DNA from: Roseomonas sp.
GTDB lineage: Bacteria; Pseudomonadota; Alphaproteobacteria; Acetobacterales; Acetobacteraceae
Direction: 5' to 3'
NCBI GenBank assembly: GCA_020249505.1
Contig: JADCFN010000013.1
Location: forward strand, 1 to 60,303
Length of the DNA stretch: 60,303 bases
Shown here one piece after another: positions 3,225-25,719 of the stretch. Numbering within the stretch: the first letter of the stretch is position 1; the number at the start of each line of letters is the position of its first letter. Position numbers and translations under genes: made by a program. A model generated the notes under the pieces. It saw only the letters and a list, made by a program, of their open reading frames with translations. It did not search any database and was not told the origin of the DNA.

Positions 3225-4352
3225 ATGATTGCGCCGCTTTTCGATCCCGCTGCGTTTCGTATCGCCCCCGGCATTACCCATCTTTGCGCCGCCGGTGAGA
3301 CACCCTTTCTGCGCCAGCATGATGCGGCCTTTGCCACCTATGCCGCTGATAAATCCGATGGCCCTGCCGGGCGCCATCGCCAGGAAGCCATGATGGAAAG
3401 CGCGCGCGCCTGTGCAGCGCGGCTGTTTCATACCGCCCCCGCCGATATCGGCTTTGTGTCATCGGTGGCGGAAGGCATTTCCATGGTGGTGGAAAGCCTG
3501 GATTGGCGCGAAGGTGATACGGTAGTGGTGGACCCGGATGAATATCCATCGGTCGTCGCACCACTGACGCTGCAACGCCAACCCAGAGTGACGCTCCGCT
3601 TCGCCAAGGCCGCCGACCCTGCCAGTTTCGCTGCCGCGATTGATGGCTCTACGCGCATGATCGGCATCAGCGCGGTTTCCTTCCTGAATGCCGCGCGGCA
3701 TGATCTGCTGGCCCTGCGCGCGGCGGCAGATAAGGTGGGTGCGCTGCTGGTGGTGGATTTCACACAAGGCGCCGGCTGGATGCCGATCCATGCCGAGGTC
3801 GCGGATTTTGCTTTCTCCGCCTGCTATAAATGGCTGCTGGGCTGTACGGGTGTTGCGCTGGCCTATTGGAACCCGAAGCGCCAGCCAGGCTGGGTACCGA
3901 GTACGGCAGGCTGGCATTCCATCGCCTCCATGGGGCGGCCGGATTGGTCGGAAACGCCCGCGCTGCTGCCAGGCGGCGCGCGCTTCACGCGCGGCAATCC
4001 ATCACATCTTGGGCTTTATGTTTTGGACTCGGCGCTGCGCTATCTGGAAGGCTTTGCGCCGGAGGCGATTGAAGCCCATGTGCAGCGCCTGACGGTGGGG
4101 TTGCTGGAACGCTTGCGCGATGCCGGCATTCCTTCCACCACACCGCCCGATCCGCGCTGGCATGGCGCCAGTGTTTGCGCAGAACACCCAAAGGCGGCCG
4201 CGATTGTGGAGGGCATGGCGCGGCGCGGCGTGCTCGCCTGGAATGGGCGCGGGCGCATCCGCATTTCCTTCCACGGCTATAATGGCAGTGAAGATATGGA
4301 CCGCGCCGCCGATGCCCTGATTGCCGAATGGCGTGCTGCCGGTGCAAGCTGA
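3225..4352 (+). CDS. Class V aminotransferase / kynureninase-like PLP enzyme
   Basis: This 375-residue fold-type I PLP enzyme belongs to the class V (NifS/kynureninase-like) group. Asp178 and Gln181 in VDFTQGAG are the usual cofactor contacts, and Lys202 in SACYKWLLGCTG is the expected Schiff-base lysine. HPxR-type substrate motifs are not obvious, so substrate and reaction (transamination, desulfuration or C-C cleavage) remain open. A GAAAGG site precedes the ATG at 3225. Its position between a DUF1028 gene and an alcohol dehydrogenase suggests that the three work on one substrate. Confidence 0.75.
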   Translation: MIAPLFDPAAFRIAPGITHLCAAGETPFLRQHDAAFATYAADKSDGPAGRHRQEAMMESARACAARLFHTAPADIGFVSSVAEGISMVVESLDWREGDTVVVDPDEYPSVVAPLTLQRQPRVTLRFAKAADPASFAAAIDGSTRMIGISAVSFLNAARHDLLALRAAADKVGALLVVDFTQGAGWMPIHAEVADFAFSACYKWLLGCTGVALAYWNPKRQPGWVPSTAGWHSIASMGRPDWSETPALLPGGARFTRGNPSHLGLYVLDSALRYLEGFAPEAIEAHVQRLTVGLLERLRDAGIPSTTPPDPRWHGASVCAEHPKAAAIVEGMARRGVLAWNGRGRIRISFHGYNGSEDMDRAADALIAEWRAAGAS

Positions 4353-22600: not shown

Positions 22601-22639
22601 GACGCCCGCCCTGTCATGGAAATTTCATGTGCACCAAGC

Positions 22640-22673
22640 TTTGTTTCCATTATGCTAGAAACATGGAAACAAA
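22640..22673. promoter_or_regulatory. Likely ArsR operator (inverted repeat)
   Basis: TTTGTTTCCAT (22640-22650) and ATGGAAACAAA (22663-22673) form perfect 11-base arms around a 12-base spacer containing a -10-like TATGCT (22651-22656). The right arm covers the likely arsR start codon. A second short palindrome (GAAATTTC) lies about 20 bases upstream. The position and symmetry fit autorepression by the downstream ArsR-type protein. Confidence 0.65.
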
Positions 22674-23463
22674 ATCCGCCGCCGCAGCCTTTGCCGCCTT
22701 GGGCCAGCCCACCCGTCTGGCCCTGATCCAAAACCTGCAAGGGGCAGGGCCTGAGGGCCTGCCCGCAGGCGAAATCGCCGAAGCTCTGGGTGTCCCGCCT
22801 TCCACGCTTTCATTCCATTTGCGTGCGCTGGAAGAAGCCGGGCTGATCACGCCGCAGCGCCAGGGACGCCAAGTGCTTTACGCCAGCGCCCCGGCGGCCT
22901 TTGCCGCTTTGGTCGGGTTTCTGGGTGGGGCAACCGCGCCCATCACCGGCCTGGGCCGGGCCATGCGGGTGCTGTTCCTCTGCACGCGCAATTCGGCGCG
23001 TTCCATCATGGCGGAAGCCATTCTTAACCGCATCGGTGCGGGGCGTTTTCGCGCCTATTCCGCCGGGTCGGAACCCGCGCCGGATGGGCCGCTGCCGGAA
23101 GTGCTCGCGCAGCTACAGGCACTTGGGCATGATGTGGCGCCGCTGCGCTCCAAATCCTGGGAGGAGTTTATCGGCCCCGAAGCGCCGCGTTTCGATTTCG
23201 TCGTCGCGCTTTGCGATACGCTGGAAGGTCAGCGCTGCCCGGATTTTGGCGATACCATCACCAGCGCGGCCTGGCCCTTGCCGGACCCGGCGAAGTTTTC
23301 GGGCGGCGGCGCCGAACGCGCGACGCTACTAAATGAGCTTTATGCGGCGCTGCGGCGCCGGTTGGATATTTTCACCAGCCTACCCTTCACCACCCTGGAT
23401 CGCATGGCGTTGCAGGCGCGGGTTGAAGCTTTGGGCAATCCGATGATGGGGGCACGGGCATGA
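22663..23463 (+). CDS. Fused ArsR-type regulator and ArsC-type arsenate reductase
   Basis: This 266-residue fusion has a winged-helix ArsR domain at about 1-90 ([27 protein letters not shown]) followed by a low-molecular-weight-phosphatase-type arsenate reductase from residue 101. The reductase has the C-x5-R loop CTRNSAR with Cys107, redox cysteines Cys184 and Cys192, and general-acid Asp in [10 protein letters not shown]. It would repress the operon and reduce arsenate in one protein. The ArsR half has no cysteine. ATG 22663 lies inside the operator and has no clear ribosome-binding site, so the message may be leaderless; an upstream ATG at 22627 would add two cysteines. The stop overlaps the GAPDH start (ATGA). 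Confidence 0.85.
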
Positions 23464-24503
23464 GGGTTGGCATTAATGGCATGGGCCGCATTGGCCGCCT
23501 GGCATTTCGTGCCGCTTTTGGTGCGGCAGAGCGGGGGGAGGATGATCCGCGCCGCGCCAATCGGTTGGACATTGTGCATGTGAATGAAGTGAAGGGCGGT
23601 GCGGCGGCGACCGCGCATTTGCTCAGCTTTGATAGCGTGCAGGGCCGTTGGCGCGCGCCCATTGCGGCTGAAGGCGCGGATGCGTTGCGCATTGTTGACA
23701 AGCGCATCGGCTTCACGGAACACGCGACACCGGCAGCAATTCCCTGGGGTGATTTGGGCGTTGATCTGGTGCTGGAATGCAGCGGCAAATTTCTGACCGA
23801 AGCGACTTTGCGCGGGCATCTCGATCGCGGGGCAAAGCGCGTGATTGTTGCTGCACCGGTCAAGGAAGTCTCAGTCCTCAACATCGTCGTTGGCGTGAAT
23901 GATGCGCTTTATGATCCCGCACGCCACCCGATTGTCACCGCCGCATCCTGCACCACCAATTGCCTCGCCCCCGTGGTGAAAGTGGTGCATGAGGCGATTG
24001 GCATCCGGCATGGCCAGATCACCACCATCCACGACCCCACCAATACCAATGTAGTGACGGATGCGCCGCGTAAGGATTTGCGCCGCGCGCGTTCGGCAAT
24101 GCTGTCCTTGCAGCCCACTACCACCGGCAGCGCGACGGCGATTGCGCTGATCTATCCTGAATTGAAGGGCAAGCTGAATGGCCATGCGGTACGGGCACCT
24201 GTGTTGAATGCGTCCCTCACCGATTGCGTGTTTGAATTGCAGCGCGCCACAAGCGCCGAGGAACTGAACGCGCTGTTCCGTGCTGCCGCCGAAGGCCCGC
24301 TGGCCGGTATTCTGGGCTATGAGGAACGGCCGCTGGTTTCCGCCGATTACGCGCGCGATACGCGAAGCTCAATCATAGATGCACCATCCACTTTGGTGAC
24401 GGATGGCACCATGGCAAAAATCTATGCCTGGTACGATAATGAAATGGGCTATGCCTGCCGCATGGTGGATCTGGCCTGCATCATGGAAGCGCGCGGCATC
24501 TGA
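23460..24503 (+). CDS. Arsenic-operon glyceraldehyde-3-phosphate dehydrogenase
   Basis: This 347-residue GAPDH has the NAD-binding start [12 protein letters not shown] and the active-site ASCTTNC with Cys164. The catalytic histidine region reads TIHDPTNTN (His191), not the HAYTGDQ of the glycolytic enzyme at 39480. GAPDHs encoded beside ArsJ convert glyceraldehyde-3-phosphate and arsenate to 1-arseno-3-phosphoglycerate, which ArsJ then exports. The gene overlaps the fusion gene by four bases and is followed after one base by arsJ, supporting that role here. Confidence 0.88.
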
Positions 24504-24504
24504 C

Positions 24505-25719
24505 ATGCGCAACTACGCCATCGTCACCGCCGCCTATTGGGGCTTTACGCTGACCGATGGCGCCTTGCGCATGCTGGTGCTGCTCTATTTCCACAAGCTT
24601 GGCTATTCGTCCTTCGCGCTGGCGTTTCTGTTCCTGCTGTATGAAGCGGCGGGGATTGGTGCGAATCTTATCGGCGGCTGGCTTGCCACGCGCTTTGGCA
24701 TTGCGCGCATGCTGGCGGTGGGGCTTACCGCACAAATCACGGGGTTTCTGATGCTGTCAGCGCTGTCGCCCAATTGGGTGCCAGCCATGGCGCTGGCTTG
24801 GGTAGTGCTGGCGCAAGGCATTTGCGGCATTGCGAAGGACATCACCAAAACCGCGTCCAAATCCGCCATCAAGCTCACGGCGGGCGATGCCTCTGGTCGC
24901 TTGTTCCGTTGGGTGGCTTGGTTCACCGGCAGCAAGAACGCGATGAAGGGCGTGGGGTTTTTCCTGGGCGGTGTGTTGCTGGAAGCGCTTGGTTTTCAGG
25001 GGGCGCTATGGTTGATGGCGGGGCTGCTCGCGCTGGTGTTGCTCGGCGTTGTGGCCTCCCTCCCGCCGCTGATGGGCAAGGCCAAGGCGTCAAGCTCCAT
25101 GCGCGAATTCATGGCGCGGGATCGCGGTGTCAATCTGCTGGCCGCCGCGCGCGTTTTGCTTTTCGGTGCGCGCGATGTCTGGTTTGTCGTGGCGCTGCCC
25201 GTGTTTCTCTATTCCTCGGGTTGGAGCTTTGCAGCAGTGGGTGGCTTCCTCGCCATTTGGACCATCGGCTACGGCCTGGTGCAGGCCGCAGCGCCATCTG
25301 TGATCCAGCGCAGCCCCGATGGGCTGAGCGCGGAAGTGCCCGCTGCGCGACTTTGGTGCCTTGGCCTTGCGGTGATTACGCCCGCGCTGATGGCGGCACT
25401 TTGGTTTGGCGTGGCGCGCGCCGATCTGGTGCTGGTGCTCGGGCTTTTGGTTTTTGGTTTTGCCTTTGCGGTGAATTCCTCACTGCATTCCTACCTCATC
25501 CTGGCTTATGCAGGCTCAAAGAAAGCCGCCGAGGATGTCGGCTTCTACTACGCCGCCAATGCCGCTGGGCGCTTTGCCGGCACGCTCCTCTCGGGCTTGC
25601 TCTATCAAATAGCCGGCATCATGGGCGCTTTGGCAGGCGCTGCGGTGATGCTGGGCCTGTGTTGGGCCATCACGCTTGCACTGCCGGATGATCGGGCGGC
25701 TTGCGCTGAAGCGCGCTGA
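24505..25719 (+). CDS. arsJ: ArsJ organoarsenical efflux permease
   Basis: This 404-residue MFS-type membrane protein has about twelve helices. The start RNYAIVTAAYWGFTLTDGAL and the segments LGYSSFALAFLFLLYE and KDITKTASKSAIKL are typical of ArsJ. ArsJ exports 1-arseno-3-phosphoglycerate, which breaks down outside the cell to arsenate, giving arsenate resistance without reduction. ATG 24505 follows the GAPDH stop by one base. The pairing with GAPDH makes this call strong. A binding-protein gene begins 34 bases downstream. Confidence 0.92.
   Translation: MRNYAIVTAAYWGFTLTDGALRMLVLLYFHKLGYSSFALAFLFLLYEAAGIGANLIGGWLATRFGIARMLAVGLTAQITGFLMLSALSPNWVPAMALAWVVLAQGICGIAKDITKTASKSAIKLTAGDASGRLFRWVAWFTGSKNAMKGVGFFLGGVLLEALGFQGALWLMAGLLALVLLGVVASLPPLMGKAKASSSMREFMARDRGVNLLAAARVLLFGARDVWFVVALPVFLYSSGWSFAAVGGFLAIWTIGYGLVQAAAPSVIQRSPDGLSAEVPAARLWCLGLAVITPALMAALWFGVARADLVLVLGLLVFGFAFAVNSSLHSYLILAYAGSKKAAEDVGFYYAANAAGRFAGTLLSGLLYQIAGIMGALAGAAVMLGLCWAITLALPDDRAACAEAR

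Follow-up and report, generated by a model that had tools for sequence, protein, structure and literature searches.

The stretch of DNA analysed here (the window; 60,303 nucleotides from Roseomonas sp.) is the whole of contig C5 in a 4.06-Mb genome (label G000) that is 99.3% complete. At positions 22663-25719 it carries three collinear genes on the plus strand, which encode a fusion of an ArsR-type repressor with an ArsC domain, an arsenic-type GAPDH and the exporter ArsJ (Table 1). The compact operon proposed in the initial annotation was confirmed in its gene content, its 4-base overlap and its one-base gap, and the adjacent GAPDH and ArsJ genes each score above a curated NCBIfam cut-off. 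Sensor and reductase do lie on one polypeptide, as had been claimed, since both domains were matched within a single open frame: the N-terminal half by NF033788 (HTH_metalloreg; 67.3 bits, cut-off 55) and by Pfam HTH_20 above its cut-off, and the C-terminal half by Pfam LMWPc (41.2 bits, cut-off 23.2). Matches of the C-terminal half to arsC models stay under their cut-offs; the one to TIGR02691, 45.2 bits against 174.3, marks a diverged group. The locus as initially annotated starts at 22640, where a perfect inverted repeat with 11-base arms begins.

Described As(III)-responsive types of ArsR use arsenite-binding cysteines, and the type 2 site of AfArsR consists of C95, C96 and C102 (excerpts of PMC11868830); the corresponding report on P. 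denitrificans ArsR names C92, C93 and C100 (excerpt of PMC9137774). The ArsR half of the window's fusion has the type 2 fold, its Foldseek match to AfArsR (6j05) having an rmsd (root-mean-square deviation) of 1.2-1.3 over 87 columns at 41% identity, and in alignment the CC pair of a motif-bearing relative coincides with that of AfArsR. However, the 266-aa protein has no cysteine before C107, and the three cysteines of the type 2 site are therefore absent. We compared 215 fusion rows, which include three copies and thus represent 212 distinct proteins. At the ArsR-ArsC junction, 168 of the 212 (170 of the 215 rows) have the motif CC-x4-8-C, 11 have one or two linker cysteines, and 33 have none, 25 of these belonging to the window's clade (34 and 26 among the 215 rows). 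The clade, which comprises the window's protein with its nearest relatives (25 distinct proteins in 26 rows), forms one branch with an SH-aLRT value of 100 inside motif-bearing lineages, in a tree made by a quick method that left out L033 and 103 motif-bearing proteins from the protein search. Fusions free of linker cysteines also occur outside the clade (L018, L021, L088, L102, L113, L121, P0047 and P0061), which implies that the As(III) motif has been lost several times; on the quick tree the zero-cysteine state takes six changes, at least four of them forced by starred branches.

Selection on the remaining sequence has been strong. Across 15 clade members (L057 left out) the dN/dS ratio of the fusion is 0.079 for the ArsR half, 0.053 for its helix-turn-helix, 0.067 for the ArsC half and 0.173 for the linker; across 13 members (L053 and L059 additionally left out) it is 0.058 for GAPDH and 0.061 for ArsJ. 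Values of 0.053-0.079 speak against a dead repressor, and loss of the motif is not decay, because the DNA-binding half is under strong purifying selection. Judged by its sequence, the repressor of this clade is thus conserved and has lost its As(III) site, so that its release from DNA would no longer be triggered by arsenite at that site. No published mention of As(III)-motif loss in ArsR-ArsC fusions was found in a limited literature search, conducted largely on partial texts.

Table 1. Features of the arsenate operon and its promoter (positions in the window)
Feature	Position	Strand	Remarks
Pho-box-like element TGTCAT-n5-TTTCAT	22612..22628	+	11-base period
Perfect inverted repeat	22640..22673	.	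11-base arms, 12 bases between; searched form found once in the genome (exact search only)
Probable ArsR operator TTTCCA-N6-TAGAAA	22644..22661	.	Conserved across genera as TTCnA-N6-TGGAA
Probable -10 element TATGCT	22651..22656	+	TATACT in clade consensus
ArsR-ArsC fusion	22663..23463	+	266 aa from ATG 22663; in-frame ATG 22627 upstream also possible
ArsR winged-helix half	22663..22923	+	Residues 1-87, no cysteine; fold match AfArsR 6j05
Linker	22924..22962	+	Residues 88-100; no cysteine in the window's clade
ArsC half	22963..23379	+	Residues 101-239; fold match Deinococcus indicus ArsC2 8p5n/8p6m
C107, nucleophilic cysteine of CTRNSARS	22981..22983	+	In 121/121 aligned proteins
C184 and C192, resolving cysteines (CDTLEGQRC)	23212..23238	+	Each in 121/121 aligned proteins
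ArsJ-associated GAPDH	23460..24503	+	NF033735, 535.8 bits, cut-off 450; overlaps fusion by 4 bases
ArsJ exporter (major facilitator superfamily)	24505..25719	+	NF033734, 508.9 bits, cut-off 400; one base after GAPDH

The count of cysteines depends on the start codon. Translation from ATG 22627 would add two cysteines (MCTKLC), and this start was rejected because the other 13 clade members examined all lack an ATG at that place. The upstream set held 14 clade members (an identical row, L055 and L057 left out) and 29 of 35 other relatives (one identical row and five opposite-strand loci left out). An ATG stands at the place of 22663 in all 14 and all 29 of these sequences, and at the place of 22627 in the window alone among the 14 and in just one of the 29. 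The initial numbering of C107 is right when translation begins at ATG 22663, and from that codon onward C107, C184 and C192 are the only cysteines of the protein, that is, the reductase set.

The sequence marks of a reductase of the LMW-PTP (low-molecular-weight protein tyrosine phosphatase) type are present in the ArsC half: C107, R113, C184, C192 and the DP motif D208-P209. C107, R113, C184 and C192 (CX5R with both resolving cysteines) occur together in 211 of the 212 distinct fusions, and the single exception to the resolving cysteines among the 215 rows is a change of C184 to Y. The best Foldseek matches of this half are arsenate reductases, namely Deinococcus indicus ArsC2 (8p6m and 8p5n), one entry of which was co-crystallized with arsenate. 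Since the full cysteine set has been kept, the fusion looks like a working reductase; the phosphatase role suggested initially is not favoured, in view of the conserved CX5R and resolving cysteines and of these best folds. The AlphaFold model of the fusion has two good domains (mean pLDDT 83.1) joined by a weak linker. Past the ArsC fold, a helical extension (residues 242-266; 23386-23463) has several residues conserved across 43 aligned fusions and is possibly a dimer contact.

The initial annotation had further argued that arsenite, as product of the reductase, has no visible exit, and that the ArsC half might therefore act mainly as a sensor or phosphatase. That no pump is nearby holds for contig C5, on which SBF, ACR3 and ArsB were all searched for without a match, but fails for the genome, which encodes an ACR3 on contig C3 (87474-88460; TIGR00832, 365.1 bits, cut-off 282.8) between HIBADH-like and SDR-like genes (named by eye). 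Thus, the missing-exit puzzle does not arise in this genome. A pump under the same operator had been named as a possible refutation; the pump exists, and a shared operator was not found. At the ACR3 locus (L004) the long repeat is absent even with up to three mismatches allowed, and the 18-base operator form occurs there twice against 1.28 expected, which is the chance level. An ArsB candidate in the same genome (29.2 bits, Pfam cut-off 22.2) was rejected, as only half of the model is covered and the 604-aa frame matches a DASS anion symporter (130 bits, below the cut-off of 198.6); no match to MIP, and hence no AqpS-like channel, was found in the genome.

Among the 15 genomes of the window's clade, eight have an ACR3 above cut-off, each accompanied by the same two neighbouring genes, complete or partial. 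Five have no ACR3 match at all and say little, because their completeness is not given. The remaining two (G154 and G164) have lost ACR3 by a deletion in place that leaves a C-terminal remnant between the HIBADH-like and SDR-like genes with the same junction (L151:1498-1658 and L150), and both keep the catalytic set of the fusion intact. We did not regard these deletions as proving that the ArsC half persists after loss of the pump: the differences in the remnant are mostly synonymous (two of ten non-synonymous), and the age of the loss is therefore unsure.

For the wider distribution, 150 genomes of the family were drawn from a larger group. Counting also those that match in ArsC alone, 59 of them match the fusion at E <= 1e-20, and full-length fusions, obtained by joining the two matched halves by coordinates, number 37 loci in 33 genomes. 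ArsJ scores above cut-off in 36 genomes, 30 of which also have the fusion, and in 30 of the 37 full-length loci ArsJ starts 1040-1118 bases after the fusion, a space for one GAPDH. In the protein search at least 6302 proteins among 8000 scored candidates matched the fusion at E <= 1e-20, and 120 matches were listed from these candidates. The closest loci (L045-L059; 91-95% identity) come from metagenome-assembled genomes titled Roseomonas sp., Asaia bogorensis, uncultured Rhodospirillales and Alphaproteobacteria bacterium. G024, G110 and G111, and likewise L091, L098, L099, L112 and L121, have at least two fusion or ArsC-like genes, which in some cases are divergent or adjacent. The parts of the operon are thus ordinary rather than new: within the family searched such a gene set is common, and published work already describes ArsR-ArsC fusions, in Leptospirillum, Microbacterium and Sinorhizobium (excerpt of PMC6205960), in the actinobacterial clusters C4 and C7 (excerpt of PMC6514093) and as the arsRC of Leptospirillum (excerpt of PMC4443643).

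Eleven of the 37 full-length loci have an ACR3 match no more than about 3 kb from the fusion and on its strand, three of these matches (G002, G078 and G138) being fragments below cut-off; with G110, four such fragments are included in the ACR3 list of the family. ACR3 is matched in 28 of the 36 ArsJ genomes (in G002 only as a fragment near a contig end) and in none of the other eight. Two of the eight, G003 and G016, have ArsB (459 and 463 bits), one (G129, 73% complete) has only weak matches of up to 35 bits, and in five (G021, G087, G095, G097 and G125) neither ACR3 nor ArsB was found, three of these five having a MIP channel somewhere. That ArsC is ordinarily paired with an arsenite pump is thus well supported, although real exceptions exist: because two clade genomes have lost ACR3 and five ArsJ genomes lack both pumps, the no-exit puzzle is genuine in some genomes, and these cases speak for an ArsC half that is only a sensor or phosphatase. 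For the window we nevertheless regard that explanation as very improbable, given the ACR3 of its own genome, the near-universal reductase cysteine set and the arsenate reductases among the fold matches. The initial suggestion that sensing may involve the ArsC half holds up; loss of the ArsR half's As(III) site is a better reason than a missing exit to suspect an unusual sensor.

The promoter retains what looks like a repressor site. Among the repeats tried, the best supported is a 5-6-5 inverted repeat of the TTCCA-N6-TGGAA type just 5' of the ATG, which has the same offset in the 14 clade members and the 29 other relatives, with a mean pairing of 4.5 and 3.9, respectively, of 5 arm bases against a median of about 1.1 at other offsets. 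The core of a published ArsR operator, ATCAA-N6-TTGAT (excerpt of PMC9137774), is also of the 5-6-5 form. The full-length repeat with 11-base arms was not seen among the relatives displayed. The 5-6-5 repeat overlaps the -10-like element, the position of which would place the transcription start near the ATG and suggests a leaderless mRNA. In the whole window the operator pattern is found four times at up to one mismatch, against 0.22 expected. A perfect TTTCCA-N6-TGGAAA lies at 3478-3495 inside an open frame; this and the other further matches were rejected as operators and taken as chance, which leaves their excess unexplained.

A second ArsR gene was found on contig C16 of the same genome (L134:7716-9514). 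It encodes a stand-alone protein with CCKGRPEVC, carries TATCCA-N6-TGGATA, a perfect repeat, across its start codon, and is followed by a gene for an FAD-dependent oxidoreductase (weak ArsO match, 37.8 bits, cut-off 425). This motif-bearing ArsR could sense arsenite and control the operon in trans, the fusion being mainly a reductase: the window's site is one mismatch from the same pattern, and Paracoccus ArsR1 and ArsR2 bind each other's operators (excerpt of PMC9137774). Against such control stands the strong purifying selection on the fusion's own DNA-binding half, and we consider it improbable.

Upstream of the putative operator, the Pho-box-like element is also conserved. The pattern TGTCAY-n5-TKTCAY at -52 to -50 from the start codon is matched at 9 or more of 12 positions in 25 of the 29 relatives (10 or more in 23) and at 11 or more in all 14 clade members, while shuffled controls reached 9 in 486 and 10 in 59 of 5800 cases. 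In the whole genome the pattern has four matches, against one for the backward control: this promoter, a site 22 bases before phnC (TIGR02315, 336.6 bits, cut-off 266.1) and two chance-like sites. About 90 bases before the genome's own pstS (TIGR00975, 375.4 bits, cut-off 205) stands TGTCATAAAAGCTTCAT, which is identical to the clade consensus box at 15 of 17 positions and is the best 17-mer against that consensus in a 19-kb stretch, the next best having 12; phoB lies in the same stretch (325.9 bits, cut-off 296.2). We take the upstream element to be a Pho box.

Phosphate status might even be the main switch, with activation by PhoB overriding an arsenic-blind repressor that only sets a basal level. 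The fixed element, its likeness to the pstS box and the lost As(III) motif would fit, as would an ArsR-SphX-GAPDH-ArsJ cluster of Nodularia with a weak phosphate response, described in excerpts of PMC9846622, the one paper found in print for arsJ together with PhoB and one that, in those excerpts, found no P-box. PhoB control has also been described for arsenite oxidase genes (excerpt of PMC4563254). However, a conserved DNA-binding half and operator-like repeat would hardly be needed for a constant brake, and the box does not replace the As(III) motif, because it is also present in relatives that keep the motif. Phosphate as the main switch therefore seems unlikely to us.

The reading that we prefer, tentatively and with a little less than an even chance of being right, is an arsenate operon boosted by PhoB and repressed by an ArsR-type protein that has ceased to use arsenite and is controlled via its ArsC half. 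Arsenate would enter through phosphate uptake; GAPDH would make 1-arseno-3-phosphoglycerate, and ArsJ would export this compound or arsenate freed from it, as published work on these families indicates. The fusion would repress the operon, bound to TTTCCA-N6-TAGAAA over the -10 element beside the start codon, and PhoB at the upstream box would raise expression under phosphate scarcity, the condition of highest arsenate uptake. The ArsC half would reduce arsenate, the arsenite leaving through the separately encoded ACR3, and release from DNA would be triggered via the ArsC half, by arsenate bound at, or turned over by, C107/C184/C192. In its strict form, the fusion would be a direct arsenate sensor, in which binding or turnover of arsenate at the ArsC active site releases the repressor and arsenite sensing has been given up; the switch would then answer to just the ion that GAPDH and ArsJ dispose of. 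We think this possible but doubtful; since several other lineages of fusions have also lost the motif, there is a hint that such a switch occurred repeatedly.

Arsenite made by the ArsC half could also remain the signal, bound by C184 and C192 with C107 in place of the lost linker site. These are the sole cysteines that remain from ATG 22663 on, and an ArsRC fusion is said to enhance arsenate sensing, according to the title of Chen et al. 2022, a reference entry alone. However, the As(III) sites in the excerpts of PMC11868830 all belong to stand-alone ArsR proteins, and no path by which an ArsC domain would signal to the DNA-binding half is known to us, so that we hold this explanation to be decidedly unlikely.

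Several points weigh against switching through the ArsC half under PhoB control. The AlphaFold linker is of low confidence (block means of 66 and 57 over residues 81-100, falling below 50 at 91-93), which does not suggest tight coupling of the two halves. The motif-bearing ArsR on contig C16, under a similar repeat, could supply arsenite sensing in trans, and three further operator-pattern matches at up to one mismatch, one of them perfect, lie in or near coding frames of the window. The Pho pattern was drawn up after the data had been seen; the element is missing from four of the 29 relatives, two of the four genome matches look like chance with the backward control itself matched once, and the window's own box agrees with the pstS box at only 13 of 17 positions, although it is still the best in the stretch (next 12). 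Finally, the idea that loss of the cysteine triad is explained by the absence of a neighbouring ACR3 was rejected: rows with and without an ACR3 nearby number 24 and 40 among triad-bearing fusions and 2 and 14 among the rest, but these reduce to three independent pairs, and no significant link was found.

The wider question is how a cell senses arsenate rather than arsenite: the As(III)-responsive ArsR types described in PMC11868830 bind arsenite through cysteines, and an As(V)-sensing repressor has been suggested for Vibrio cholerae (PMC9601151). This question can be put to a direct test in the natural series of related fusions, some of which have the As(III) motif and some not, and the series offers a candidate for arsenate biosensors. 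The Pho box, if real, would tie arsenate export to phosphate hunger, which would be sensible in phosphate-poor lakes; some records of the clade are titled after lakes.

Like the published ArsRC fusions known to us from excerpts, the window's protein has an N-terminal ArsR and a C-terminal ArsC in one chain. Its clade is without cysteine in the ArsR half and linker. AfArsR shares the fold of the ArsR half, but its three cysteines, the place of which is kept as CC-x4-8-C by most fusions, are missing in the window's clade. The closest solved relative of the ArsC half, Deinococcus indicus ArsC2, is a stand-alone enzyme, unlike the fusion. The same GAPDH-ArsJ pair is found in Pseudomonas aeruginosa DK2 and in the var operon of V. 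cholerae, with an ArsR-type repressor as the first gene. Here, in contrast, the repressor is fused to a complete ArsC, there is no VarH among the three genes, and a Pho-box-like element lies upstream. The V. cholerae ArsJ operon is induced by arsenate in the absence of arsenite, and the study proposes that its ArsR, in which the motif has undergone a C-to-A change, senses As(V) (PMC9601151); in the same paper ArsJ is argued to export free arsenate. This As(V)-sensing proposal is a parallel to the motif-less repressor of the window.

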